Source: an uncultured Spirochaetota bacterium (GTDB lineage Bacteria; Spirochaetota; Spirochaetia; JAFGXN01). From it: a DNA stretch of 64,000 nt. The DNA is taken from the NCBI GenBank assembly GCA_944390005.1, contig CALXOJ010000001.1:62001-126000 (forward strand), read 5' to 3'. Positions 15,772 through 63,892 of this stretch are shown here, one piece after another. The position numbers and the translations under genes are program-made. The notes beneath the pieces are model-generated. The model had not been told where the DNA came from and made no database searches. It was given only the letters and a program-made list of their open reading frames with translations. Position 1 is the first letter of the stretch. Every line of letters begins with the position of its first letter.

Positions 15772-16560
15772 ATGACAAAACAGGAATGGTTGCAGATGGA
15801 TGAGGACGAATTGTGGGCTCTTTACATTAAAACAAAAGAGCCGCATATTCGCGATATCCTGATAGAAAAATACTCTCCACTGGTAAAATATGTCGCCGGT
15901 AAAATCGCCATGAATATGCCGAGAGAGGTTGAGTACGACGATTTGGTCGGCTGGGGAGTATTCGGTTTGTTTGACGCTATTGATAAATTTCTTCCGGAAC
16001 GTGATGTTAAATTTAAAACTTATGCCGTGCGCCGTATTCAGGGAGCTATTTACGATGCGTTGCGGGCCGACGATTGGGTTCCTCGTTCCGTCAGAAAAAA
16101 GGCTAAAGAAGTCGAGCGTGCCATTCATCATTTGGAAGGATTGCACGGCCGGTCGTGCACCAGCAAAGAAATTGCCGATGAGCTGCAAATTTCGGAAGAA
16201 GAGTACGAAGATATGCTGCTCTCTATCAGCGGAACCAACGTTCTTTCTTTAAACGAAGTTCACTTTTCGGGAGATGATAACGATAAAGTTTCTCTGGACG
16301 AAAATTTAAAATCTCCGATCAGTCTGAATCCCGATGTTCAAATCGAAAAGGAAGAGGTCAAAAGGGTGATTATCGACGCCATTAATGAACTTCCCGAAAA
16401 TTCCAAGCAGGTTTTGGTTGCTTATTATTATTACGATTTAACACTTAAAGAGATTGGCAAAATTCTCAATGTTACGGAATCGCGGGTTTCGCAGCTGCAT
16501 ACAAAAGCGCTGTTGAAATTAAGAGTAAAATTGACGGGAATTCGAAAAGGTTTATTTTGA
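15772..16560 (+). CDS. fliA: Flagellar sigma factor FliA/WhiG (sigma-28 type)
   Basis: This is an RNA polymerase sigma factor for late motility genes. The 262 residues show sigma region 2 (DDLVGWGVFGLFDAIDKF, then VKFKTYAVRRIQGAIYD) and region 3 (DDWVPRSVRKKAKEVERA). Region 4 ends in a helix-turn-helix (LTLKEIGKILNVTESRVSQLH). This is the WhiG/FliA subgroup. Candidate target promoters with its consensus lie in this window upstream of flgF (57512-57538) and of the M23 peptidase (23238-23264). No anti-sigma FlgM is visible nearby. Confidence 0.96.
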   Translation: MTKQEWLQMDEDELWALYIKTKEPHIRDILIEKYSPLVKYVAGKIAMNMPREVEYDDLVGWGVFGLFDAIDKFLPERDVKFKTYAVRRIQGAIYDALRADDWVPRSVRKKAKEVERAIHHLEGLHGRSCTSKEIADELQISEEEYEDMLLSISGTNVLSLNEVHFSGDDNDKVSLDENLKSPISLNPDVQIEKEEVKRVIIDAINELPENSKQVLVAYYYYDLTLKEIGKILNVTESRVSQLHTKALLKLRVKLTGIRKGLF

Positions 16561-19416: not shown

Positions 19417-20709
19417 TTATTCAAAGAGACGGCTTTTTACTGTCATGCCGTCGATTCGGCTGCCGCGAAAATCAATGCGGATGCACTCTTTCGCATATTC
19501 GGCAAACCAGCGGCGGTAAAGATCCATTCGTTGGTCTGACAGAATCGGCGCTCCGTTGCCGTCTTTCGCTTCGCTTTTCAGTGGTGAACGGAGCAGCGCA
19601 TCGGATTGAGTTTCGGCGGGATTCAGGCGATCGCCGGAGAAAAGAGCTTTTTCTTCAAAGAAAGAGCCTTTTGCGTGCGTTTTGCCGTCAGGATAACCGA
19701 GATCGATTCCAATCAAAAAAACAGTTTTCGGATTCATGAGACGTGCCGCTTCAACCGCGGTTGCGGCCACCGTTCCTCCCGAACCGAGAAAAGGAACGTG
19801 ATATTTTTCGGCTGCGGCTGTTTCTCCCGGAAATCGCGATGCATAAAAAAGAATTTCTCTCCACGGCTTTCTTATATTCAAAAAATAAGTCGATAACGGG
19901 GCAATCAATGTTATTCCTTTTGCATTGAAAAAAAAGAGATGCATTGCGTTATAAAATTGAGGGTCGCCTGTAACAACAAAATCGGGAGTTATGCCGTGTT
20001 TTTGTAAGACTGAAGCAGCTGTGTCAACAGCCAGTAAAATCAGATCCGATCGGCAGTTCTTCACTTCATCGATGTGGTCGTCCAACGTCGGACCTGCGCC
20101 GATAACCGCTGTCGGCCGCCCGATTGCGCGGTTTTTCAGCTCCATTACCGTGCGCGGCATTGCGCAGAAGAGCGGCAGTGTGCGTTTGATGTTTTGGGAA
20201 AAACGCTTTCCGTATTTTTTTAAAGTTGCGGAGTTGGTATTTTCGATTTGTCTGCGGTAGTTTGCCAATGCTCGAATGCGAGTGCAAATGGACGGAAACA
20301 GTTTTTCGACAGGCGGCGGAATCAACAGGGCGGTATTTGAAGAGGGATGATCGGAAAGAAAGAGAGAGAGTGTTGCTTCGCTGAAAGGTGTTAAAATACG
20401 GATGTTTTTCGGAAAATTCGTCATCAGTTCCGGATATTGCTGCCGCAAGACAGTATAAACGGAGGAATCGGGAACAATCATTAAAATGTCAGCTTTCGGA
20501 AACTGTTCGGCGATTTGCAGAGGCAGATATCCGAGACCGTTTTCGACAACGATGACGGCCTCTGTTTGCGAGGAGAGGGCGGCCGCGGTCTTTTCGGCCT
20601 CCCGGAGCGGATCATAGACGGAGTGCAGCGGAATTCCGTCAATCGAAAGGGAATAAGCACCCTGTCTTGAAGAAACAATGCAGAGATTCCGATTATTCGA
20701 GCTCGACAT
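19417..20709 (-). CDS. DUF115 / Maf-like protein (possible flagellin glycosylation factor)
   Basis: The 430-residue protein (start at 20709 chosen; overlaps the PBP gene by 17 nt) has the DUF115/MptE-like Rossmann domain with AVIGAGPTLDDHI. It also has DFVVTGDPQFYNAMHL and the metal/nucleotide-site region FLIGIDLGYPDGKTHAKGS. Motility accessory factors (Maf) with this domain transfer nonulosonic acids to flagellins. Treponeme flagellins are known to be glycosylated. The hydroxymethylpterin pyrophosphokinase activity of archaeal relatives is the alternative. Location behind a cell-wall enzyme rather than a flagellin gene leaves the role open. Confidence 0.75.
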   Translation of the reverse strand: MSSSNNRNLCIVSSRQGAYSLSIDGIPLHSVYDPLREAEKTAAALSSQTEAVIVVENGLGYLPLQIAEQFPKADILMIVPDSSVYTVLRQQYPELMTNFPKNIRILTPFSEATLSLFLSDHPSSNTALLIPPPVEKLFPSICTRIRALANYRRQIENTNSATLKKYGKRFSQNIKRTLPLFCAMPRTVMELKNRAIGRPTAVIGAGPTLDDHIDEVKNCRSDLILLAVDTAASVLQKHGITPDFVVTGDPQFYNAMHLFFFNAKGITLIAPLSTYFLNIRKPWREILFYASRFPGETAAAEKYHVPFLGSGGTVAATAVEAARLMNPKTVFLIGIDLGYPDGKTHAKGSFFEEKALFSGDRLNPAETQSDALLRSPLKSEAKDGNGAPILSDQRMDLYRRWFAEYAKECIRIDFRGSRIDGMTVKSRLFE

Positions 20710-22675
20710 AAATGACAGCGTCTTTCTGTAGCACGGAGTTTGGTTCGGGACTTTGAGATACAACTTTTCCCTCTCCGGTGATGTGAAATTTAAAATTTTT
20801 AGAGTAAAGTCCGATTAAATCCCGTTTGGAAAGACCGATTAAGTCGGGAACTTTTCCGGAAGTTGGAGTCGGAATTGAGTTTGCCGGATTTGTTTTTAAT
20901 TTATCGGAAATTTCATAAAGAGAGTCGGTTTCTTTATAGACATTCAAGTAAAGAATCAACTTCTCTGCCAAATTTCTGACCAACGGCGCCGTGACGTTGC
21001 TGCCGTAAATGCTTCCGGCCCGAGGAGAGAAAACGGCTCCGTAAACAATAAAACGCGGTTTTTCAGCCGGAAAAAGCGTTAGCGCTGATGCAACGTACTT
21101 GTCATCATAATATCTTTTATTTTGTTCATCGAAAATTTGAGCGGTTCCCGTTTTTGAGGCTAACCGAATTCCGTTGACAGCGGTTTTTCTGGCCAATCCG
21201 CCTTCGGTTCCTTCCGTCATCATTTTCAGGATATTTTGAACAGTTTTATAAGAGAGGACTTCTTCAGAAATTGCGACACGGGCAGCGGCCACTTCATTTC
21301 CTTCCGAATCTCGAATAGATTTGATAACGTGGGGACGCAGCAGGCGGCCTTCATTGGCGAAAACTGTTGCGGCAGTAACGATTTGTAATGCGGTCGTTGA
21401 AATTTCCTGCCCCATGGTAATTGTTGCAAGACTGCGTCCGGACCATGACGACGGACGACGCAGGACTCCTTTGTTTTCATTGCTGAGTCCCAATCCGATG
21501 CGCTGCCCGAAGCCAAAGTTGCGCAGTTTTGTATATAATTCATTTTTGCTCAAATACTCCGTTGATGTGCATGCCGCTGTATTGCAGGAAAGAACAATGG
21601 CATCTTTCGGAAATACCCGACCGTGTGGCGTTACACATTGAATGACAGACGGAGGAGTGCCTGTTCCGGGAATTTCATATGATGCTCGGCAGAAAAGTTC
21701 TTGGTTCAGAGGGATTCGTCCGGTATCTAACGCACAGGCAACGGTAAAAATTTTTAAAACCGATCCCGGTTCAAAAGCATAAGAAATGGCGCGGTTCATA
21801 CGCGAAGAAGAATCTGATTTATTGTAAAAATTCGGGTTAAAAGTCGGCGCATTTTCCATAGCCAGAATTTCTCCCGTTTGAGCATCCATAACGATGAAAA
21901 TCGCCGCATCTGCCTTCTCTTCCGTCATTGCCGTTTTGGCCTGTTGTGCAGCCATGTATTGAATTTGTGTGTCGATAGTCAGATAAACGTCTCGGGTAAT
22001 CACAACGCTGTCGACAACTTTATTTGCGGACAAATCTTCGTCGTAGATCTTTTCAACCCCTTCCCGCGCAATTCCGTCAAAATCAACAAATCCCAAAATG
22101 TGCGCCGCCAGCTCACCTTTCGGATAACTGCGGCCTTGATTCTCTTCGATAAATTGATTGAGCCGCAAAATCGGATAACGATCAACTTTTTCTTCCGCAG
22201 ACGCTGTTTGAATTTCATTCCGTTGAGAAGCGGCAGCATTGATTTCGTCAACTTTGACCGACAGTGCTGCAATTTCTTCTTTGGAAGCACGGCGTTTATA
22301 GAGGCGGTATTTCCCGCCTTTGCTCAAATCGGTAAAAATTTCCTTTGCCGGAATGTTTAAAACTGAAGATAAAATCTCGGCAGCCATTTGATATTCTTTG
22401 AAATCGCCTTCTGTTTGGACTTTGTAAACAATATCAGTGAAAGTTGTTTGTGTTGCCAATAAGGATCCGTTTCGGTCTCTGATATTTCCGCGATGTTCGG
22501 CGGCATAATCGGAAATTTGCATGGTTCGTCCGGCGGTTGATTGATTGCCGACCATGAGCGAGGCGTAGCGAAATAAAATAATCAGCGACGCTGTAAGCAC
22601 CAGCGCGGCCGTCGCTAAAATTCCTTTTTTGCCTATTTTTACCGATTTGTTTATCCGATTTTGCTTTTTTATCAT
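20693..22675 (-). CDS. Class B penicillin-binding protein with PASTA domain (FtsI/SpoVD type)
   Basis: This peptidoglycan transpeptidase makes cross-links at the septum or side wall. Of 660 residues, one N-terminal span (about 18-36) comes first, then the dimerisation domain. The transpeptidase domain has all catalytic motifs: S305-x-x-K308, S363-C-N365 and K508-T-G510. A C-terminal PASTA domain begins near residue 608 (VPDLIGLSKRDL) and ends in YVELE. PASTA on a single class B PBP is typical of SpoVD/PBP2x-like enzymes. It follows lepB by 22 nt in the same operon. Confidence 0.92.
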   Translation of the reverse strand: MIKKQNRINKSVKIGKKGILATAALVLTASLIILFRYASLMVGNQSTAGRTMQISDYAAEHRGNIRDRNGSLLATQTTFTDIVYKVQTEGDFKEYQMAAEILSSVLNIPAKEIFTDLSKGGKYRLYKRRASKEEIAALSVKVDEINAAASQRNEIQTASAEEKVDRYPILRLNQFIEENQGRSYPKGELAAHILGFVDFDGIAREGVEKIYDEDLSANKVVDSVVITRDVYLTIDTQIQYMAAQQAKTAMTEEKADAAIFIVMDAQTGEILAMENAPTFNPNFYNKSDSSSRMNRAISYAFEPGSVLKIFTVACALDTGRIPLNQELFCRASYEIPGTGTPPSVIQCVTPHGRVFPKDAIVLSCNTAACTSTEYLSKNELYTKLRNFGFGQRIGLGLSNENKGVLRRPSSWSGRSLATITMGQEISTTALQIVTAATVFANEGRLLRPHVIKSIRDSEGNEVAAARVAISEEVLSYKTVQNILKMMTEGTEGGLARKTAVNGIRLASKTGTAQIFDEQNKRYYDDKYVASALTLFPAEKPRFIVYGAVFSPRAGSIYGSNVTAPLVRNLAEKLILYLNVYKETDSLYEISDKLKTNPANSIPTPTSGKVPDLIGLSKRDLIGLYSKNFKFHITGEGKVVSQSPEPNSVLQKDAVIYVELE

Positions 22676-22697: not shown

Positions 22698-23231
22698 TTA
22701 ACCGTGTTCTGAAGAAGCGTCTTCGATTCTCGCCGATATTTTAAAAAGTACTTTTCCCTGAACGCGGTCGATTGTCACAAATCCGAAATCCCGGGAATCT
22801 GTCGAATGGCTGCGGTTGTCTCCCAACAGGAATATAGCATGTTTCGGAATTTTTGTAAAATCTTCGAATAAATATTTTTTGGAATCGGAAATATGAAGAA
22901 CTTCTCCGTTGATTGAGATTGTATTTGGATCAATGAAGTTGATAAGATCTCCTTCCGTTGCAAGAACCCTTTTGATTAAAAGTTGGTTTGTTTGCGGACT
23001 TTTGAAAATTACAATATCGTTGCGAAGAATTTTCGCATGCGTTCTGCTTGATAAAAACCTTTTTCCGTTATATAATGAAAGAACCACAATACGGTCGCCT
23101 TTACGGAGTGTAGGGTTCATCGAATCGCCGTCGATTCGTTTGATATCAAAAGATGCGGAGAGGATGACGGCCCAAAAGATTAGAAAAAGAGGGAATAGAA
23201 AAAATCGAAAGATTTTTTTTAAGGCGAACAT
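22698..23231 (-). CDS. lepB: Signal peptidase I
   Basis: This enzyme cleaves signal peptides at the outer face of the inner membrane. With the start at 23231, the 177-residue protein has one N-terminal span (IFRFFLFPLFLIFWAVIL). The serine/lysine dyad is in DGDSMNPTLRKGD and LLIKRVLATEGD, and the box LLGDNRSHSTDSRDFGFV is present. An upstream in-frame Met exists but would add residues unlike the family and cross the promoter. It is the first gene of the reverse operon. Confidence 0.92.
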   Translation of the reverse strand: MFALKKIFRFFLFPLFLIFWAVILSASFDIKRIDGDSMNPTLRKGDRIVVLSLYNGKRFLSSRTHAKILRNDIVIFKSPQTNQLLIKRVLATEGDLINFIDPNTISINGEVLHISDSKKYLFEDFTKIPKHAIFLLGDNRSHSTDSRDFGFVTIDRVQGKVLFKISARIEDASSEHG

Positions 23232-23237
23232 AAATGT

Positions 23238-23264
23238 TAAACTCGCATAAAAAATAACCGATAT
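23238..23264 (+). promoter_or_regulatory. Sigma-28-like promoter upstream of the M23 peptidase
   Basis: TAAA (23238-23241), exactly 15 nt, then ACCGATAT (23257-23264). The consensus is TAAA-N15-GCCGATAA. The -10 element differs from the flgF site (GCCGATAT) by one base. The predicted leader is about 48 nt to the ATG at 23319. A nearby TATAAT (23282-23287) could provide a sigma-70 alternative but lacks a -35. Confidence 0.5.
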
Positions 23265-23281
23265 AACAGTATCGTTGTTAT
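23254..23281. repeat. Hairpin/inverted repeat in the lepB-M23 divergent region
   Basis: AATAACCGATA (23254-23264) is followed by a 6-nt loop and TATCGTTGTTATT, which is its reverse complement apart from two extra bases. It covers the sigma-28-like -10 element and the lepB start-site side. It could be an operator or a leader hairpin on either transcript. Confidence 0.4.
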
Positions 23282-23308
23282 TATAATGCTGACTGCAGAA
23301 TGAAACAA
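23280..23308 (-). promoter_or_regulatory. Sigma-70 promoter for the lepB operon
   Basis: On the reverse strand: TTGTTT (-35, 23303-23308), 17 nt, then a perfect TATAAT (-10, 23280-23285). The predicted 5' leader is about 42 nt. It faces away from the M23 peptidase gene and overlaps the downstream part of that gene's leader. Confidence 0.65.
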
Positions 23309-23318
23309 GGGCTTCCCT

Positions 23319-24368
23319 ATGAAAAGAGAGAGAAAATATTTTTATAAAAAACGCAATAATGCAATTCATTTTCAATTTGATAAGGCATCCCGGTTTTACA
23401 ATCGGTTAAAAGGGCTCGTTACAAAGCGGCGTTTGGGGGTTGCCTGCGGTTCAATTACTGCTGTTTTTCTTTTTTCGGCGTTTGCGGTCTTTCCGTTTTC
23501 CACGGAACGGTTGGTTGATATAGATTCGCATGAAGAAGAGTTTTCTTTGCAATTTATTGCCGAATACTATCAAATGGATTATTCCGGCGTCGGAAGCGGC
23601 GGCGATATGGAACAGGAAATTGAAATGTTCAAAGAATTCGCCTACACGACGTACACGATTCAGCCCGGAGATACACTGGAAGGAATTGGCCGCGACAACA
23701 AAGTTTCGTTGGATACATTGATCAGTTACAATAATATCAAAGACTGCCGCCGCCTGATTCCGGGAACCGATTTGCGCATTCCCAATTTAGACGGGGTTTT
23801 GCATAAAATCAAAAAAGGCGATACGTTGGAGTCGATTGCCAAGCAGTACGATGTTAACATAAACAACATTATTGACAGCAATAATTTGGAATCGGAAGTT
23901 TTGGCTGTCGGCAATCAAATTTTTGTCCCGGGCGGAAAGTTAAGCGAATACGAATTAAAAAAAGCTATCGGCAATCTGGTGATTTGGCCGTGCACCGGAC
24001 GGCTGACATCTTATTTTGGCTACCGAGCCGATCCTTTCACCGGAAAACGGTCGTTTCACACCGGAATCGATATTGCTAATTATCGAGGAGCTCCGATTCG
24101 GGCCGCCATGAGCGGAAAAGTCGTTCTCAACGATTACCGTCCGCGCGGATACGGTCGGTATGTCGTCATTCAGCATTCGAACGGATTGAAAACGCTCTAC
24201 GGTCACCTGAACAAATCGTTTGTCCGTTCGGGACAATGGGTGGAACAGGGACAGTTGATCGGCGAAATGGGCACGACGGGATACAGTACAGGCAATCACC
24301 TCCATTTTACGATTTACGAACACGGCCGCCTGGTCAACCCTTTCAATTACTTGTCGGGTAACAGATGA
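23319..24368 (+). CDS. LysM-M23 peptidoglycan endopeptidase
   Basis: This is a zinc endopeptidase that opens peptide cross-links in the wall. Its 349 residues are a basic cytoplasmic N-terminus, one span (about 40-60), and two LysM wall-binding modules (about 111-156, YTIQPGDTLEGIG; about 161-205, HKIKKGDTLESIA). The C-terminal M23 domain has intact zinc ligands and catalytic His: H247, D251, H296 and H329 (FHTGIDIANY, YGHL, GNHLHF). The downstream glgA overlaps its stop (ATGA). The promoter region carries a sigma-28-like site, so it may be expressed with motility genes. Confidence 0.93.
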   Translation: MKRERKYFYKKRNNAIHFQFDKASRFYNRLKGLVTKRRLGVACGSITAVFLFSAFAVFPFSTERLVDIDSHEEEFSLQFIAEYYQMDYSGVGSGGDMEQEIEMFKEFAYTTYTIQPGDTLEGIGRDNKVSLDTLISYNNIKDCRRLIPGTDLRIPNLDGVLHKIKKGDTLESIAKQYDVNINNIIDSNNLESEVLAVGNQIFVPGGKLSEYELKKAIGNLVIWPCTGRLTSYFGYRADPFTGKRSFHTGIDIANYRGAPIRAAMSGKVVLNDYRPRGYGRYVVIQHSNGLKTLYGHLNKSFVRSGQWVEQGQLIGEMGTTGYSTGNHLHFTIYEHGRLVNPFNYLSGNR

Positions 24369-25780
24369 AAAAAAAAGCAGCCGTTGCGTTTGTATCAGCA
24401 GAAGCGGCTCCGTTTTCTCAAACGGGAGGATTGGGCGATGTCGTTCCCGCATTGGCGGAAGCTTTTGTCAACGAAGGAGTTTCCGTCACGGTTTTTCTGC
24501 CGTTTTATCGAAAAAATGCCGGATTAAAAACCGCCCGTTTACCGATTTCGTTTTGTGTTGATGAATCAATCACATCCGAAAAAACACTTTTTTCTGCACT
24601 TAACCGCAACGGGGTTGAATACATTTTTGTCAAAAGTCCGGGAATTTTTACCGACGGCGAATACGGTGACTGTAACGGAGCTTATGCAGACAACTGCTGC
24701 CGTTTTTCCCTTTTCTGCCGCTCAGTTGCCGGTTACTTAATCGAATGCGGCCGTTCGTTTGACATTATTCACTGCCACGATTGGCAAACCGGTTTGCTGC
24801 CTGCATTGCTGAAACGGCATCGTTTTTCCGCTAAAACTGTCTTTACAATACACAATTTGGCGTATCAGGGAGAGTTTGACGATAATTTTATCGCTTATAC
24901 GGGTTTACGGAAAGATGATTTTGCGGTTGAAAATCATTGCAGCGTCAATTTCATGCGCGCGGCATTAAAAGCAGCCGATAAGATCACAACAGTCTCTCCG
25001 ACATACGCAAGAGAAATTCTTGAATCGGGAAACGGCTGCGGAATGGAGGATTTGCTTCGTTCGCGCGGAGATTGTTTTTGCGGCATTCTGAATGGAATCG
25101 ACGTCAGCGAGTGGAATCCGGAGAGCGACAGTTTCATTCCGTATTCATATTCGCTTTCCGATTTTTCGGGAAAGAGTCAAAACAAAGCTTTTTTTATGGA
25201 GGAAAACGGATTAAAAAATCCACAGCGGCCTTTGTTTGTGATGATTTCCCGATTGGCGCGACAAAAGGGAATTGAAGCGTTGTACGGAGAAAACGGCGCT
25301 GTCGAACGGCTACTGACTCAATTCGATCTCAATTTAGCGGTCATCGGTACCGGCGATCCGGAGACGGAGCAGAAAATTAAAGACCTCTCCGAACGGTATG
25401 AAAACTTTTCCGGGACGGTCGCGTTCTCTTCAAGGCTCTCTCATTTAGCCGAAGCCGCCGGCGACTTTTTTTTGATGCCGTCATTGTATGAGCCATGCGG
25501 ATTGAATCAGCTTTATTCACTGCGATATGGAACCATTCCTTTGGTAACGGCGACCGGCGGGTTAGCTGATACGGTTTGCACCGATACCGATCTCTCGGTT
25601 CGAACCGGCATCCGCATTCCCGGAAATTCGGCGGATGATATCGTTGCCGCTGTTGCGGATGCACTTCGGCTTTATGCTGACGGACCGGCGGCGGTTGACG
25701 CTGTTCGTCGGAACGGTATGAGCCGCGATTTTTCATGGCGTGCGTCATGCATTGAATATTTAAACTTCTATAACAGTTGA
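24365..25780 (+). CDS. glgA: Glycogen synthase (ADP-glucose type)
   Basis: GlgA transfers glucose from ADP-glucose to growing glycogen. The 471-residue GT5 enzyme has the N-terminal domain opening KKKAAVAFVSAEAAPFSQTG, where the Lys of the usual KTGGL loop is Gln19. The central IHCHDWQTG motif is normal, as is the C-terminal catalytic box (MPSLYEPCGLNQLYSLRYGT). It overlaps the M23 gene by 4 nt and is therefore cotranscribed with it. glgC lies 302 nt downstream on the same strand. Confidence 0.94.
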   Translation: MKKKAAVAFVSAEAAPFSQTGGLGDVVPALAEAFVNEGVSVTVFLPFYRKNAGLKTARLPISFCVDESITSEKTLFSALNRNGVEYIFVKSPGIFTDGEYGDCNGAYADNCCRFSLFCRSVAGYLIECGRSFDIIHCHDWQTGLLPALLKRHRFSAKTVFTIHNLAYQGEFDDNFIAYTGLRKDDFAVENHCSVNFMRAALKAADKITTVSPTYAREILESGNGCGMEDLLRSRGDCFCGILNGIDVSEWNPESDSFIPYSYSLSDFSGKSQNKAFFMEENGLKNPQRPLFVMISRLARQKGIEALYGENGAVERLLTQFDLNLAVIGTGDPETEQKIKDLSERYENFSGTVAFSSRLSHLAEAAGDFFLMPSLYEPCGLNQLYSLRYGTIPLVTATGGLADTVCTDTDLSVRTGIRIPGNSADDIVAAVADALRLYADGPAAVDAVRRNGMSRDFSWRASCIEYLNFYNS

Positions 25781-26082: not shown

Positions 26083-27369
26083 ATGGACAGTAATCATGTG
26101 ATCGCAATTGTTTTAGGCGGCGGCAAAGGGACTCGGCTTTATCCGTTGACGAAGGTCAGATCAAAACCGGCTGTTCCGTTCGGAGGCAAATATCGGCTGG
26201 TCGATATTCCGATTTCTAACTGTATCAATGCGGGGTTTAAACAAATTTTCATTTTGACTCAGTTCAACTCTGTGTCTTTGCATCAGCATTTATCCAATAC
26301 TTATATTTTCGATGTTTTCAGCAATGGATTTGTCGAAATTTTGGCGGCCGAGCAGAATTTCAATAATAACAGCGGTTGGTACGAAGGAACAGCTGATGCA
26401 GTCCGCAAGAATTTTTCTCATTTGCACGACCGCAAACCGTCGCACTACATCATTCTTTCCGGAGATCAGCTTTACAGCATGGATTTGCGGGATATGTTTA
26501 ACAAGCACGTTGAAAGCAAGGCTAAAATTACTATTGCTTGTCATCCCGTCAGTCGGACGGAAGCGGCAGAGTTGGGAATTCTCTCCACCGATGACAAGGG
26601 ACGTATTCAGAAATTTTTAGAAAAACCGGGATTGGAAGCTAATATTGATGAATATCGAATTCCTGAGAAGATGCGCAGCCGGCTGCCGAAATTGGCAGAC
26701 AAAGAGTATCTCGGATCCATGGGAATGTACATCTTTGATGCAGAGACGCTGGATCAGGCGCTGGATAACGAGTTCACCGATTTCGGAAAAGAGATCATTC
26801 CTTATATGATTCAGAAAAGTAAAGTCAATTCATATGTTTATGAAGGATATTGGGAAGACATTGGAACTATCCGGTCGTTTTATGACGCAAACATTAATTT
26901 GGCGACTGTCAACCCCGAATTCAACTTTTACGATGAAAAACTTCCGATTTACACTCACCGTCGTCATTTGCCGGCGACAAAAATCAATTTTTGTACCATT
27001 TCGCAGTCATTGGCGGCTGAAGGCAGTATTATTACAAACGCCAATATCATGAACAGTGTTATTGGAATTCGAAGTGTCATTGAATCCGGAACAACATTAA
27101 GCGGGGTTATTACTCTTGGCGCCAAATATTACGAAACAGAGCCGGAGAAACAGCGAAACCGAGAAAAAGGAATTCCGAATATTGGAATCGGACGCAACTG
27201 CTCCATTAAAAACACAATTATTGATCAGAATGCCCGTATCGGTGAAAATTGCAGTATCGGTTATCAGGATATTCCGAGAGCTGACGGCGATTACGGCTCT
27301 TACTGTATTAAAGACGGAATCATTGTAATTGTCAAAGAAGCGATCATTCCCAACGGAACGGTTATTTGA
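26083..27369 (+). CDS. glgC: Glucose-1-phosphate adenylyltransferase
   Basis: GlgC makes ADP-glucose from ATP and glucose-1-phosphate, the committed step of glycogen synthesis. The 428-residue protein has the pyrophosphorylase motif VLGGGKGTRLYPLTKVRSKP at the N-terminus and VPFGGKYRLVDIPISN. The substrate region is FLEKPG, and YEGYWEDIGTIRSFYDAN follows. The C-terminal end is a left-handed beta-helix with hexapeptide-like repeats. Allosteric control is usual for the family. The effector cannot be told here. Confidence 0.95.
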   Translation: MDSNHVIAIVLGGGKGTRLYPLTKVRSKPAVPFGGKYRLVDIPISNCINAGFKQIFILTQFNSVSLHQHLSNTYIFDVFSNGFVEILAAEQNFNNNSGWYEGTADAVRKNFSHLHDRKPSHYIILSGDQLYSMDLRDMFNKHVESKAKITIACHPVSRTEAAELGILSTDDKGRIQKFLEKPGLEANIDEYRIPEKMRSRLPKLADKEYLGSMGMYIFDAETLDQALDNEFTDFGKEIIPYMIQKSKVNSYVYEGYWEDIGTIRSFYDANINLATVNPEFNFYDEKLPIYTHRRHLPATKINFCTISQSLAAEGSIITNANIMNSVIGIRSVIESGTTLSGVITLGAKYYETEPEKQRNREKGIPNIGIGRNCSIKNTIIDQNARIGENCSIGYQDIPRADGDYGSYCIKDGIIVIVKEAIIPNGTVI

Positions 27370-57511: not shown

Positions 57512-57538
57512 TAAAGAATTTTTTCGTTGCGCCGATAT
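57512..57538 (+). promoter_or_regulatory. Sigma-28 promoter of flgF-flgG-flgJ
   Basis: TAAA (57512-57515), exactly 15 nt, GCCGATAT (57531-57538). The consensus is TAAA-N15-GCCGATAA. It lies 17 nt before the flgF ATG. The matching sigma factor gene (fliA) is in this window. Confidence 0.75.
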
Positions 57539-57555
57539 AAAAACAGAGGTTTACG

Positions 57556-58404
57556 ATGTTACGAGGAATTTATACCGGCGCCAGCGGCATGATTGTTCAA
57601 ATGCATAAAATGGACGCCGTTGCCAACAACATGGCCAACGTCGATTTGATCGGTTACAAACGGGATTATACGGCAAACAAAGCCTTTCCCGAACTGATGA
57701 TGCGCCGGCTGAATACTGACATTGTCGAACGGTTTCCCGTCGGTTCGATTGACAAAGCTCCGTATTTGGGAAAATTGGGAACCGGCGTCGAATTAAATGA
57801 AGTTTATACCGATTTTCAACAAGGTTCGTTGAGGGAAACGGAGAATCCGTTTGATGTGGCGCTCAGCGGTACCGGCTTTTTCTGCGTGCAGACGCCTCAA
57901 GGCGAGCGTTATACCAGAAACGGCAGCTTTACTCTTGACGATAACGGTCTTCTTGTCAATAAAGACGGTCTTCCTGTTATGGGCGAAAACGGTTACATCT
58001 ACCTCAAACTCAATAATTTCCGCATCGATGCCGACGGGACGATTTATCACAATCCCCGTTATGCCGACGATCCCAATCGGTTGGTGACAATGAGAGAAAA
58101 CGATTGGGAAGAGGAAGAAGTTGTCGATCGGCTCCGCGTTGTTGATTTCGAAGAACCTCGGTACCTCCGCAAACAGGGAAATTCGCTGTGGATTGATACC
58201 GAATACTCCGGTGCGGCGCAGACGGTGGAATTGGGAGTTGAGAGAAAGGTTCATTCCGGTTTTTTGGAAACATCCAATGTCAATTCGGTTGAAGAGATGG
58301 TAAAAATGATCGAATTGAACCGCGCTTATGAGGCTAATCAAAAATCGCTGCAGGCGCACGACTCTTTAGCCGATAAAATGATTAACGACGTGATGCGTCG
58401 ATAG
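57556..58404 (+). CDS. flgF: Flagellar rod protein FlgF (FlhO-like)
   Basis: FlgF is a proximal rod component. The 282-residue protein has the rod N-terminal motif (GIYTGASGMIVQMHKMDAVA, NNMANVDLIGYKRD) and a central beta domain. The C-terminal coil is SVEEMVKMIELNRAYEANQK. It is less FlgG-like than the next gene, and its sequence GSIDKAPYLGKLGTGVELN suits spirochaetal FlgF. A clear sigma-28 promoter lies just upstream. Confidence 0.9.
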   Translation: MLRGIYTGASGMIVQMHKMDAVANNMANVDLIGYKRDYTANKAFPELMMRRLNTDIVERFPVGSIDKAPYLGKLGTGVELNEVYTDFQQGSLRETENPFDVALSGTGFFCVQTPQGERYTRNGSFTLDDNGLLVNKDGLPVMGENGYIYLKLNNFRIDADGTIYHNPRYADDPNRLVTMRENDWEEEEVVDRLRVVDFEEPRYLRKQGNSLWIDTEYSGAAQTVELGVERKVHSGFLETSNVNSVEEMVKMIELNRAYEANQKSLQAHDSLADKMINDVMRR

Positions 58405-58416
58405 GAGTGATGCGTT

Positions 58417-59211
58417 ATGATGAGAGCGTTGTGGACTTCGGCAAGCGGAATGACCGCTCAGCAGTACAATGTAGATACCATTTCCAATAACTTATCAAAC
58501 GTCAATACGACCGGCTATAAAAAAATGAGAGCCGAGTTTGAAGATTTGATTTATCAAACACAGCGGACGGCGGGAACGCCGGCAACGGAACTGACAGTGG
58601 TTCCGCTTCCGATGCAGGTTGGACACGGAACAAAAGTTTCGGCAACACAGCGGCTGTTTGAGCAGGGGAGTCTGCGGGAAACCGGCGTTTTCTCCGATAT
58701 GGCGATTGACGGCGAGGGCTTTTTCCGCGTTCTGCAGCCGGACGGCACATTCGCCTATACCCGAAACGGTGAGTTTAAAGTCGATCGCGACCGGCAGTTG
58801 GTGACCAACAAAGGATTGTACGCGTTTCCGCAGGTCACTTTTCCGGAAAATTTCATTCCCGATTCGGTTGCTATCTCACCTCAAGGCGAAGTTTCGTGCA
58901 AAATTCCCGGTCAGGAAGAGGCGGCTGTTATCGGACAAATTCAGCTTTATCGCTTTGTCAATCCGGCCGGTTTGAATGCATTGGGTGACAATTTGTTCAA
59001 ACAGTCGGCGGCATCCGGTGAAGCGATCGCCGGATTACCCGGTTCGGAAGGAATGGGGCAGATTCACCATAAATTTATTGAAGCGAGCAATGTCTCTGTC
59101 GCAAACGAAATGGTCAATATGATTGTGGCGCAGCGTGCCTACGAATTAAATTCGAAGGCGATTCAAACCAGCGATGCCATGCTGGGGATTGCCAACAACT
59201 TAAGACGGTAG
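58417..59211 (+). CDS. flgG: Flagellar distal rod protein FlgG
   Basis: FlgG forms the distal rod. The 264-residue protein has ALWTSASGMTAQQYNVDTIS, NNLSNVNTTGYKKMR, a central YTRNGEFKVDRDRQLVT strand and the C-terminal VANEMVNMIVAQRAYELNSK. Length is normal. It follows flgF by 12 nt and precedes the rod-cap gene by 9 nt. Confidence 0.96.
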   Translation: MMRALWTSASGMTAQQYNVDTISNNLSNVNTTGYKKMRAEFEDLIYQTQRTAGTPATELTVVPLPMQVGHGTKVSATQRLFEQGSLRETGVFSDMAIDGEGFFRVLQPDGTFAYTRNGEFKVDRDRQLVTNKGLYAFPQVTFPENFIPDSVAISPQGEVSCKIPGQEEAAVIGQIQLYRFVNPAGLNALGDNLFKQSAASGEAIAGLPGSEGMGQIHHKFIEASNVSVANEMVNMIVAQRAYELNSKAIQTSDAMLGIANNLRR

Positions 59212-59220
59212 GGGTAGGCG

Positions 59221-59532
59221 ATGATCGGTTCTGTTCAAAGTTATGGGCAGCAGATTTTGGCGGCAAACCGCCCGGAGCTTCAAAGTCCGGAACATTTTTC
59301 CGGTGATGAAAAACGGTTGTATCGGGCGTGCGTCGAATTCGAGGCGATTTTTGTCAAACAAATGCTTGATTCCATGAGAAACACTGTTCCGAAGGGCGGC
59401 CTTTTCGACGGCGGTATGAGCCAGGAAATTTTCGAGGATCGTCTTTACGGTTCTTACGCCGAAAAAATTTCAGAAACAGCCGGATTGGGATTGGCTCGGC
59501 AGATGTTCGAACAAATTAAAGAGACACTGTAA
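59221..59532 (+). CDS. flgJ: FlgJ-like rod-binding protein (no muramidase domain)
   Basis: The 103-residue protein matches only the N-terminal rod-binding part of FlgJ (YRACVEFEAIFVKQMLDSMR, then FDGGMSQEIFEDRLYGSYAE). The peptidoglycan-cutting domain found in enterobacteria is absent, as in other spirochaetes. A separate wall hydrolase would then be needed for rod passage. The M23 enzyme at 23319 is one candidate by its promoter, but this is speculation. Confidence 0.88.
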   Translation: MIGSVQSYGQQILAANRPELQSPEHFSGDEKRLYRACVEFEAIFVKQMLDSMRNTVPKGGLFDGGMSQEIFEDRLYGSYAEKISETAGLGLARQMFEQIKETL

Positions 59533-59614
59533 ACGCATTCGCTCGTCTCTCTTCTCCATGTAGGTTTTTAACGCAATTTTTCCTCTTTTTTTTTTCTTTA
59601 AAACTCATTTATGC

Positions 59615-59643
59615 TTGACTTGTTGTTTTCGTCGGTTCATAAT
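59615..59643 (+). promoter_or_regulatory. Sigma-70 promoter of the V-ATPase operon
   Basis: TTGACT (59615-59620), 17 nt, CATAAT (59638-59643), 30 nt before the subunit E ATG. The 141-nt gap holds nothing else recognised besides a T-rich stretch. Confidence 0.6.
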
Positions 59644-59673
59644 GAAATATGCTGTAAAGTGAGGTGTCAGTGA

Positions 59674-60270
59674 ATGGAATTGCAACTTGACGAATTGATT
59701 CAATCGATTAAAAAAGACGGGTTGGAAGCGGCCGAACAACAAAAAAAAGATATTATTGCTGAAGCCGAAAGCGAAGCCCGGCGCATTATTGAGCGGGCTC
59801 AAAAAGAAGCGGATGAAAAAACAGCCGCGGCGGAAGCTAAAATTCGGAAATTTGAAGAGTCGGGGAAGGCTTCGCTGCAACAGGCCGGTCGCGATTTGAT
59901 TTTGAATCTGAAAAAGAAAATCGAAGAAATTTTTTCGCGGATTTTGATTTCTGCCGTTGATGAAAATTTAACCGCCGAAACGGTCGGAGCGTTGATTCCT
60001 TCCGTTATTGCGGCTTCCGGCGAAAATCCGGATCGTTTGAAAGCCGTTGTTTCGGGAAAAGATGCGGAAGCCGTGACGGCGTTTTTGAAAAAATCGCTTG
60101 CCAAAGAGATTTCCGCAGGACTGGAAATTGCCGTTTCTCCCGGAAGTGCTGCCGGTTTTCGGGTTGAAATAAAAGACGGGTCTGCTTATTATGATTTCAG
60201 CGACGAAAAAATCGCTCAAATGCTTTCGGTTTATCTGAATCCGAAAATCGCAGAATTGCTTGATGCGTAA
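59674..60270 (+). CDS. V-type ATP synthase subunit E
   Basis: Subunit E is part of the peripheral stalk. The 198-residue protein has a long charged N-terminal helix (KDIIAEAESEARRIIERAQK) and a compact C-terminal domain typical of bacterial V/A-ATPase E subunits. It is the first gene of the operon, followed by DUF2764, A, B and D. Confidence 0.88.
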   Translation: MELQLDELIQSIKKDGLEAAEQQKKDIIAEAESEARRIIERAQKEADEKTAAAEAKIRKFEESGKASLQQAGRDLILNLKKKIEEIFSRILISAVDENLTAETVGALIPSVIAASGENPDRLKAVVSGKDAEAVTAFLKKSLAKEISAGLEIAVSPGSAAGFRVEIKDGSAYYDFSDEKIAQMLSVYLNPKIAELLDA

Positions 60271-60281
60271 CGGAGTCGGTT

Positions 60282-60815
60282 TTGGGAAGTTATTACTATC
60301 TGATGTCGTCATTTCCCTCGCTTGATTTAAAAACGGCGCCGACCGTTTCGTTGAGGGACTTTATTCAAGCTGTAACCGCTCAACTTTCTGAAAAGGAGGC
60401 GTCCGCCTTACTTGAAATTTTATCGGATGAACCCAGCTGCGTTAAAGGCGCTGCGGCGGATTATTTGCGGTGGGATAAAGCGGTTCGAAATGCGTTGGTC
60501 AAACTTCGTGCCGGCGGCGAATCGGCAGCTGATTGCAGGGAAGGCGAATCGATTCCGTCAGCTGCGGCAACGGCGGCGGCTTTGATGAAAATCGATTCTC
60601 CGTTGAAAGCGGAGCAATTTTGGGATTCCGAACGGTGGAATTATTTGGAAAATTTAAAGACGGGACACTGTTTTGATTTCGATGCGGCGGCATTGTATGC
60701 GCTGCAGCTTCGAATTGCCGAACGAAACGCCCGGTTTCGAGTCGATACGGGTGAACGGAATTATGCGGAGCTTTATAAAACGGTGATTGATCAGGCGTCA
60801 AAAAGCGGAGTGTAA
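60282..60815 (+). CDS. DUF2764 protein of the V-ATPase operon
   Basis: The 177-residue protein starts at TTG 60282 (MGSYYYLMSSFPSLDL). It matches the type of gene found between subunits E and A in spirochaete and Bacteroides V-ATPase operons, called DUF2764. The position is where subunit C or F would be expected. A stalk-linked role is likely but unproven. It ends 3 nt before the A subunit. Confidence 0.75.
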   Translation: MGSYYYLMSSFPSLDLKTAPTVSLRDFIQAVTAQLSEKEASALLEILSDEPSCVKGAAADYLRWDKAVRNALVKLRAGGESAADCREGESIPSAAATAAALMKIDSPLKAEQFWDSERWNYLENLKTGHCFDFDAAALYALQLRIAERNARFRVDTGERNYAELYKTVIDQASKSGV

Positions 60816-60818
60816 ACG

Positions 60819-62591
60819 ATGAGTGCAAAAGGAAAAGTATCGGGTGTCAACGGCAACATGATTACCGTTGATGTTTCGGATAAAATCGCAATGAATGAGG
60901 TCGGTTATGTGCTTTCCGGCGGAAAGCGCTTAAAATCCGAGGTGATTCGCATCAACGGAACGACAGCGCAAATGCAGATTTACGAAATTTCCGGCGGTAT
61001 TAAAGTCGGAGATGACGTTGAGTTTTCGGGAGAAATGTTGGCGGCCGAGTTGGGACCGGGGCTTCTCGGACAGATTTACGACGGACTGCAGAATCCGCTT
61101 CCCGAACTGGCGGAAAAAACCGGTTTCTTTTTGGCGCCGGGCGTCTATTTGGATGCATTGGATCGAAGTAAAAAGTGGGCTTTTACCCCCGCTGTTCAGA
61201 CAGGAGAGACAGTCGAGGCCGGCGATACGCTGGGAACGGTTCCCGAAGGGGCGTTTACCCACCGCATTATGGTGCCGTTTTCGATGCGGGGCCGTTATAC
61301 AGTCGAATCGATTGCCGGCGAAGGCGAATATGCGGTAACGGATAAGATCGCCCGCATCAAAGATTCAAAAGGCAACGGATTCGATTTGACCATGATGTTT
61401 GAATGGCCGGTTAAAAGGGCGATTAAATGCTACAGTGAGCGTTTGAAGCCGGTCAATCCGATGATTTCACAGGTGCGTTTGATTGATACGTTTCTGCCGG
61501 TTGCGTTGGGCGGAACGTTCTGTATTCCCGGGCCTTTCGGTGCCGGAAAGACGGTTTTGCAGCAGACGTTGAGCCGTCACGCTGCCGTTGATATCGTTAT
61601 CATTGCGGCCTGCGGTGAGCGCGCCGGTGAGGTTGTGGAAACTCTGAAAGAGTTTCCCGAATTGACAGATCCCAAAACGGGGCGGTCGCTGATGGAACGC
61701 ACCATTATCATTGCCAACACCTCGTCGATGCCTGTTGCTTCCCGCGAAGCGTCGGTTTATACGGCAGTAACATTGGCTGAATATTATCGGCAAATGGGAC
61801 TGAACGTTCTTTTGATCGCCGATTCGACTTCCCGCTGGGCTCAGGCGATGCGCGAAATGAGCGGACGTTTGGAAGAAATTCCGGGCGAAGAAGCGTTCCC
61901 CGCTTATTTGGAGTCAACCATTGCCGCTTTTTACGAAAGAGCCGGGTTGGTTAAGCTGAAGGACGGATCGATCGGTTCTGTCACCATTGGAGGAACGGTT
62001 TCGCCTGCCGGCGGAAATTTCGATGAACCGGTGACACAGGCAACACTGAAAGTCGTCGGCGCCTTTCTCGGTCTTTCCCGCGAACGTTCCGACGCACGCA
62101 AATATCCCGCCATTCACCCGTTGGAGTCGTGGAGTAAATATAAGAGCCTGATTCCTTCGGAAGTGACCGGTTATGTTTATGATGTAATGAGAAAAAGCGC
62201 CGAAATCGATCAAATGATGAAGGTTGTCGGCGAAGAGGGCACCAGCCTTGACGATTTTCTGGTGTATCTGAAAGGTGAATATGTTGACGCGGTTTATTTT
62301 CAGCAGAACTCGTTTGATCCCGTTGACGCTGCGGTTCCGACCGAACGCCAGCACCGCTACTTCAAACTGATTGTCAAAATCGCAGCGGCTGACTTGAAAT
62401 TCGAAAGCAAAGACGAGGCTCGGCGGTGGTTTGCTGAACTGCGTTTGAAAACTCTTGATTTTAACGGAACTCAATACCTTTCCGAAGATTTTCTGCGCAT
62501 CGAAAAGGAAATTGAAGCGTTTGTTGATGAAAGAAAAACAGGGTATTTACCGTACAGCGAAGGTGTTTTGAAAACGGCGGAGGAAATCTGA
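60819..62591 (+). CDS. V-type ATP synthase catalytic subunit A
   Basis: Subunit A hydrolyses or makes ATP. The 590-residue protein has the Walker A loop [20 protein letters not shown], the non-homologous insert region of V/A types, and [20 protein letters not shown]. Length and motif set are normal. In spirochaetes this complex is often ion-pumping in either direction. The ion used cannot be told here. Confidence 0.97.
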
Positions 62592-62593
62592 AA

Positions 62594-63892
62594 ATGGAAA
62601 AAATTTACAGTAAAATCGAATCGATTTCAGGCAACGTGATTACCGTAAAAGCCGAAAACGTGGCTTACGGCGAATTGGCGGAAATTTCCACTTCGTTCGG
62701 AAAGTCGTTGGCGGAAGTGATTAAATTAGATCGCGATTTGGTGTCCCTGCAGGTTTTTGCCGGCGGCCGTGGAATTTCGACCGGAGATTCTGTGCGGTTT
62801 TTGGGAAATCCGATGCGTGTTTCCTTTTCTCCCGATTTGTTGGGGAGGGTATTTACCGGCTCCGGCGAGCCGCGTGACAACGGTCCGGCGCTGACCGATA
62901 ACCTCATTACCATTGCCGGACCGTCGTTTAACCCTGCAAAGAGAATTGTCCCGAGTAAGATTGTCCGTACCGGTATTCCGATGATCGATTTGTTTAACAC
63001 GTTGGTCGAATCTCAAAAGCTGCCGATTTTTTCCATTTCCGGGGAACCGTATAACGAACTGTTGGCGAGAATTGCGCTTCAGGCTGAGGTCGATATGATT
63101 ATTCTCGGCGGAATGGGCTTGAAATACGACGATTACCTTTATTTTAAAGAGACGCTGGAAGAAGGCGGCGCGCTCTCCCGAACCGTTATGTACATTCACA
63201 CCGCATCCGATCCGACTGTCGAATGTCTGATGGTTCCCGATATTTCGCTTGCTGTCGCTGAAAAGTTTGCGCTGCAGGGAAAACGCGTTTTAGTGCTTCT
63301 GACCGATATGACCAACTTTGCTGACGCCAAAAAGGAAATTTCGATTACACAGGAACAGGTTCCCTCTAACCGCGGTTATCCGGGGGACCTCTATTCGCAG
63401 TTGGCATCCCGTTACGAAAAGGCGGTCGACATCGACGGAGCCGGTTCCATCACCATTTTGGCGGTGACAACCATGCCCGGTGACGATGTCACGCATCCGG
63501 TTCCCGATAACACCGGTTACATTACGGAGGGGCAGTATTACCTAAAAGGCGGCCGTATCGAACCGTTTGGGTCTCTGTCGCGGTTGAAACAGCAGGTGAA
63601 TTCGAAGACGCGCGAAGATCATCGGACCATTATGGATGCCATGATTAAGCTTTATGCTTCCTACAAAGATACTCTGGAGAAAAAATCGATGGGATTTTCT
63701 CTCTCCGAGTGGGACGATAAGCTGCTGAAATACGGCTACCTGTTTGAAACCAAGATGATGAATCTTTCGGTGAATATTCCGCTTGAAGAGGCGTTGGATG
63801 AAGGCTGGAAGATGTTGGCTGAGTGTTTCGAGAAACAGGAGACCGGAATCAAAACGGAGTTAATCGAAAAATTCTGGCCGAAAGAGGTTTAG
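62594..63892 (+). CDS. V-type ATP synthase regulatory subunit B
   Basis: Subunit B is the non-catalytic partner of A. The 432-residue protein has the expected [20 protein letters not shown] in place of an intact P-loop. [20 protein letters not shown] and [18 protein letters not shown] follow. It starts 2 nt after the A subunit stop. Confidence 0.97.

Follow-up and report, generated by a model that had tools for sequence, protein, structure and literature searches.

The LysM-M23 endopeptidase gene of the FliA-bearing Spirochaetia appears to have an old sigma-28-type (FliA) promoter, of which the site studied here is the local form; from comparison of relatives we give this reading a probability of about 0.7. 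The site lies in the window, a stretch of 64,000 nucleotides from an uncultured spirochaete, which also contains fliA about 7 kb away. A sigma-28-type promoter for this gene had been proposed from the window alone. Comparison gives it good support and takes it deeper than first claimed, to the majority of FliA-bearing families in the class. This pattern suggests that the flagella and wall remodelling are switched on together.

Because the flagella of spirochaetes rotate between the wall and the outer membrane and give the cell its shape, their growth should be coordinated with remodelling of the wall. If a wall endopeptidase has a FliA-type promoter in most families that bear FliA, the two would be linked in a simple way, comparable to sigma-D and the autolysins in Bacillus. 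Such a link would predict that in Borrelia, where FliA has been lost, the gene is rewired and driven by sigma-70. A fuller picture is more tentative: FliA would control the LysM-M23 endopeptidase across the FliA-bearing Spirochaetia, remodelling would be timed with flagellar assembly, and the window genus would have added a dead LysM/LytM partner and a captured glycogen synthase.

The site and its genes

The original prediction of TAAA-N15-ACCGATAT upstream of the peptidase was confirmed at exactly 23238–23264, in the 87-bp spacer between the divergent lepB and M23 genes (Table 1). The −35-like and −10-like elements are 15 bases apart, the −10 ends 54 nt before the M23 start, and transcription is predicted to begin at about 23271.

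Table 1. Features of the window discussed in the text
Feature	Position	Strand	Basis and remarks
fliA, flagellar sigma factor	15772–16560	+	TIGR02479, 260.9 bits (cut-off 189.6)
lepB, signal peptidase I, divergent neighbour	22698–23231	−	Pfam S26; TIGR02227 above cut-off
Sigma-70-like TTGATA-N17-TATAAT, possible second promoter	23048–23076	+	Inside lepB (antisense), about 240 nt 5' of M23
−35-like TAAA of sigma-28-type site	23238–23241	+	Direct reading; identical in congener (G001/L046)
−10-like ACCGATAT of sigma-28-type site	23257–23264	+	Direct reading; GCCGATAT in congener
Sigma-70-like promoter of lepB, TTGTTT-N17-TATAAT	23280–23308	−	Direct reading; congener TTGTTA-N17-TATAAT by scan
Ribosome-binding site of M23, AAGGG	23307–23311	+	Direct reading; ATG 7 nt on; AACAAGGG in congener too
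LysM-LysM-M23 endopeptidase gene, 349 aa	23319–24368	+	Pfam, PDB homologues, alignment
glgA, glycogen synthase	24365–25780	+	Pfam GlgA; NCBIfam TIGR02095, 462.6 bits (cut-off 328.45)
flgF site TAAA-N15-GCCGATAT, for comparison	57512–57538	+	Identical in congener; FlgF by Pfam
flgJ	59221–59532	+	Pfam Rod-binding alone

A single site of this kind proves nothing, since the genome has many near-consensus sigma-28 sites. TAAA-N16-CCGATAA with at most one mismatch occurs 137 times, versus 60 for the reversed pattern. Among 103 near-consensus places checked, few were promoter-like and several were coding sequence or terminator hairpins. What raises the window site above chance is its conservation, in the congener and in FliA-positive orthologues.

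The sole congener at hand (G001; record CALXKN010000003.1, locus L046) has the same gene order of lepB, M23 and glgA, and its site is TAAA-N15-GCCGATAT. Eleven of the 12 defined positions are identical to the window, and the single change is closer to consensus. Identity over the remainder of the spacer is 43/75 (57%; hypergeometric P = 0.02 for motif versus spacer conservation). Both species thus have TAAA, a gap of about 15 nt and a GCCGATAA-like −10, and the site has not been lost in this close relative with the same gene order.

Two candidate elements were rejected. The plus-strand TATAAT at 23282–23287 was dropped as a −10 for M23: the congener has TATACC there, and the minus-strand TATAAT of lepB is kept. 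After another M23 gene, TTAAGTTTAT...GCCGATAAACTTAA (L187, about 1110–1150, G000:C1:299622; also L241) has the look of a terminator hairpin and mimics a sigma-28 site.

Pfam finds two LysM domains and Peptidase_M23 (PF01551, 114.7 bits) in the M23 protein, which also has a hydrophobic stretch at its N-terminus. The HxxxD and HxH zinc ligands of peptidase family M23 (LytM type) are present as H247, D251, H327 and H329, and are invariant in an alignment of five orthologues. The M23 stop and the glgA start share a 4-base ATGA at 24365–24368, the overlap originally described, and the congener has the same.

In the mechanism we propose, FliA-RNA polymerase would start at the predicted position, read M23 and continue through the 4-base overlap into glgA. 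Its N-terminal hydrophobic stretch would anchor the enzyme, with LysM holding it to peptidoglycan. By cutting peptide cross-links it would allow the wall to be remodelled while periplasmic flagella are being built or cells are elongating and separating. In many relatives the short DNA segment with the M23 promoter probably also contains that of the divergent PBP/lepB genes; for the window genus, we propose that the M23 and lepB promoters have come apart.

Conservation across the class

We scanned the region from −100 to +40 of the M23 start for TAA-N15/16-[GAT][CT]CGA[TA]A, a motif composed after the sequences had been seen and with flagellin-gene variants allowed. It is present in 30 of 37 orthologues from FliA-bearing genomes, which share ancestry, and in 19 of 23 families; shuffles gave an expectation of 0.36, the opposite strand 0 and reversed sequence 1. 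One further locus, L033, bears the motif and falls outside the 30 because an upstream TTG had been taken as its start.

Other families of the class have TAAT-N16-GTCGATA[TA] 5' of their M23 orthologues, usually 5–20 nt from the ATG. The distance from site to M23 ATG is mostly 5–20 nt, and that from site to divergent start ranges from about 30 to more than 300 nt. The form in most relatives, TAAT-N16-GTCGATAT, departs from the classical consensus. Among the matches listed, this exact form lies solely 5' of M23, so it does not itself define a regulon.

More canonical sites are found at loci with no divergent PBP/lepB detected beside M23. Three of these, L051 (T. putidum) and L246 and L247 (taken as Treponema from their likeness to L051), have TAAA-N15-GCCGATAT; L047, L050, L054 and L055 have TAAA-N15/16-G[TA]CGAAA[AT]. 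The consensus −35 and more canonical sites at such loci suggest selection on the M23 strand.

FliA-less families retain a related element. In f3, f4, f9 and f18 (seven loci), TA[AG]T-N16-GTCGA[TG]A lies 5' of M23, always with the divergent ATG 33 nt off, so something besides FliA must account for the element in these families. Its sigma-28 features are eroded: TAA has become TAG in 5/7 loci and the last base of GATA[TA] has become G in 5/7. On the other strand the element reads TCGACA-N17-TAATAT or TACTAT, plausibly a sigma-70 promoter of the PBP gene. These families may represent one single loss of FliA. For most FliA-bearing relatives, we infer that the element consists of overlapping divergent promoters.

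At L255 and L258–L263, from FliA-less families, a very short spacer separates the divergent PBP and M23 genes, with a constant 33 nt between GTCGA and the PBP ATG. The fixed distance and short spacer suggest leaderless transcription.

Two other FliA-less genomes, G021 and G043, are without the site and have TATAAT near the M23 start. They are probably Borrelia-like, judging from gene order and the loss of FliA among other features. Their best M23 match adjoins lepB and lies 4–5 kb from an SLT gene.

Flagellar genes and other possible targets

Some sites of flagellar genes resemble those of M23. As originally noted, the flgF site, which begins at 57512, has the −10 core of the window's M23 site except for the first base. 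The species' own flaB site is TAAA-N15-GACGATAA, and flagellin sites vary among relatives. The exact window form, TAAA-N15-ACCGATAT, lies 5' of flagellin genes in two genomes, G026 (L299) and G028 (L302). Flagellin-gene −10 variants shared with M23 sites include GTCGATAA (G029, G034) and GCCGATAA (G014). Of the flagellin upstream regions examined, under half matched when up to two mismatches were allowed, leaving FliA specificity in these genomes loosely defined. The mapped sigma-28 promoter of T. denticola flaB2 has CCGATAA as its −10 (PMC9481697). In many genomes M23 and fliA are on one contig and strand, with M23 roughly 8–17 kb downstream.

The best lead for a regulon is a second LysM/LytM-like gene of 298 aa (G000:C4:33814; L214:781–1708, G000:C4:33780 onward), with TAAA-N15-TCCGATAT immediately 5' of its ATG. 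Its congener orthologue (L330), 84% identical, has TAAA-N16-CCCGATAT. The M23-like region of the protein, as we read its sequence, is without the HxxxD and HxH ligands, and the protein may act as a partner to the M23 enzyme of the window. Another candidate sigma-28 site, TTAA-N16-CCGATAA (L196, about 2199–2263; G000:C2:153298), lies 37 nt 5' of a lipoprotein-like gene and is identical in the congener.

Two observations concern the flagellar neighbourhoods of the window. At 57512–63892, flgF-flgG-flgJ follow a sigma-28-like site and are themselves followed by V/A-type ATPase subunit genes on the same strand. An MptE-like/DUF115 protein (19417–20763, minus strand), encoded in the lepB-PBP gene group beside fliA, weakly matches the flagellin modification protein PseD.

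Alternative promoters

M23 and glgA might be transcribed mainly from the sigma-70-like site inside lepB, with the sigma-28-like site minor or silent. The candidate is an 11/12 match with correct spacing, the congener has TTGTCA-N17-TATAAT (also 11/12) in the same place, and only 0.85% of mononucleotide shuffles of the upstream 300 nt attain 11/12. The probable Borrelia orthologue of M23, without sigma-28, also has TATAAT close to its start. We nevertheless consider this unlikely. The TATAAT within lepB overlies the LepB codons for LYNG, which are conserved as protein; a transcript from this site, with a predicted start near 23083, would have a leader of about 236 nt antisense to lepB; and the class-wide keeping of the proximal element would go unexplained. 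The sigma-70 start may also be used for M23-glgA as a second one, and regulation would then be mixed.

It is less likely still that in most relatives the element simply serves the divergent PBP/lepB as a sigma-70 promoter (minus strand, TCGACA-N17-TA[CA]TAT), its sigma-28 likeness being a by-product. This would account for the FliA-less families, where the element is kept at its fixed 33 nt from the divergent ATG, and for conservation that extends toward the divergent gene. However, in FliA-bearing genomes the element stays 5–20 nt from M23 even when the divergent start is at least 100 nt off, and sites are more canonical where no divergent PBP/lepB was detected. The FliA-less loci are also altered, at TAA and at the last GATA[TA] base (5/7 each). 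In the window genus lepB has its own promoter, standing apart from the CCGATAT element, yet CCGATAT is kept. We prefer a sigma-28-type promoter acting on M23.

Role of the enzyme

The enzyme had been put forward as the wall hydrolase that the flagellar rods would need, given a FlgJ without a muramidase domain. The description of FlgJ is borne out: Pfam gives a Rod-binding match only, with no hydrolase domain in the protein. That M23 is a dedicated rod-penetration hydrolase in place of the missing domain is nonetheless very improbable, even with a rod-binding-only FlgJ, a sigma-28-type site on M23 and fliA close by. Both genomes of the genus contain one SLT lytic transglycosylase each, and in B. 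burgdorferi it is an SLT enzyme, BB0259, that does this job with a single-domain FlgJ (PMC8517470). M23 orthologues are also present in FliA-less genomes. Finally, attempts to inactivate bb0262, a B. burgdorferi LysM gene, failed, and an essential function was suggested for it (PMC2845121). This gene is the probable Borrelia orthologue of the window M23, the gene number being deduced from nearness to lepB and the SLT gene. Failure of the knock-out suggests a general wall role. A need for M23 as a flagellar rod hydrolase is therefore not supported, and general wall remodelling, raised with the flagellar programme, fits better.

The Borrelia system resembles the window genus in pairing a single-domain FlgJ with a separate wall enzyme (BB0259, or LTaseBb). 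It differs in that Borrelia is without sigma-28, and BB0259, as an SLT transglycosylase, cuts glycan whereas M23 enzymes cut peptide bridges. The SLT protein of the genus and that of the Borrelia-like genomes are alike in the catalytic domain only (about 32% over 98 residues).

Comparison with known systems

The best analogue would be Bacillus subtilis, where sigma-D controls endopeptidases: there, as proposed here, a motility sigma factor is associated with wall hydrolases. LytF carries LysM repeats. It belongs to NlpC/P60 rather than M23, the flagella of B. subtilis are external, and no glgA is involved. Here, unlike in B. subtilis, the wall gene and a divergent PBP/lepB often have a promoter region in common. 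The sigma-D regulon includes the wall hydrolase genes lytF, cwlS and others, D,L-endopeptidases among them (PMC10653849, regulator table).

Among spirochaetes, T. denticola flaB2 and Brachyspira flaB1 and flaB2 have sigma-28 promoters of the same type as here. The known sigma-28 targets in these organisms are flagellins, unlike M23 here, and the literature searched describes no M23 endopeptidase as a sigma-28 target in either. Nor did that literature contain a FliA-endopeptidase link, or shared control of wall enzymes and flagella, in spirochaetes.

The link to glgA

Co-transcription of M23 and glgA is likely, judging from their 4-base overlap. The overlap is known in 2/2 species of the window genus and only there. 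In other genera a convergent secA usually comes after M23, with no GlgA match near M23 within the flanks examined, and we rejected a general M23-glgA order for treponemes. Related treponemes keep the site (TAAA-N15-GCCGATAT) without the overlap. The proposal that glgA is under the same sigma factor thus stands as far as the overlap, which is kept in the congener; a wider link does not hold, given secA outside the genus, and the sigma-70-like site could drive both genes. Sigma-28 control of glycogen synthesis, if real, would be at most genus-specific, a local curiosity and no treponeme trait.

A neighbour of glgA shows a separate peculiarity. Between the two species GlgC (26083–27369 in the window; L046:7747–9033) has 99.5% protein and 95.7% DNA identity, versus about 85% DNA identity for its neighbours glgA and M23. 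Unusual conservation and recent exchange are candidate readings.
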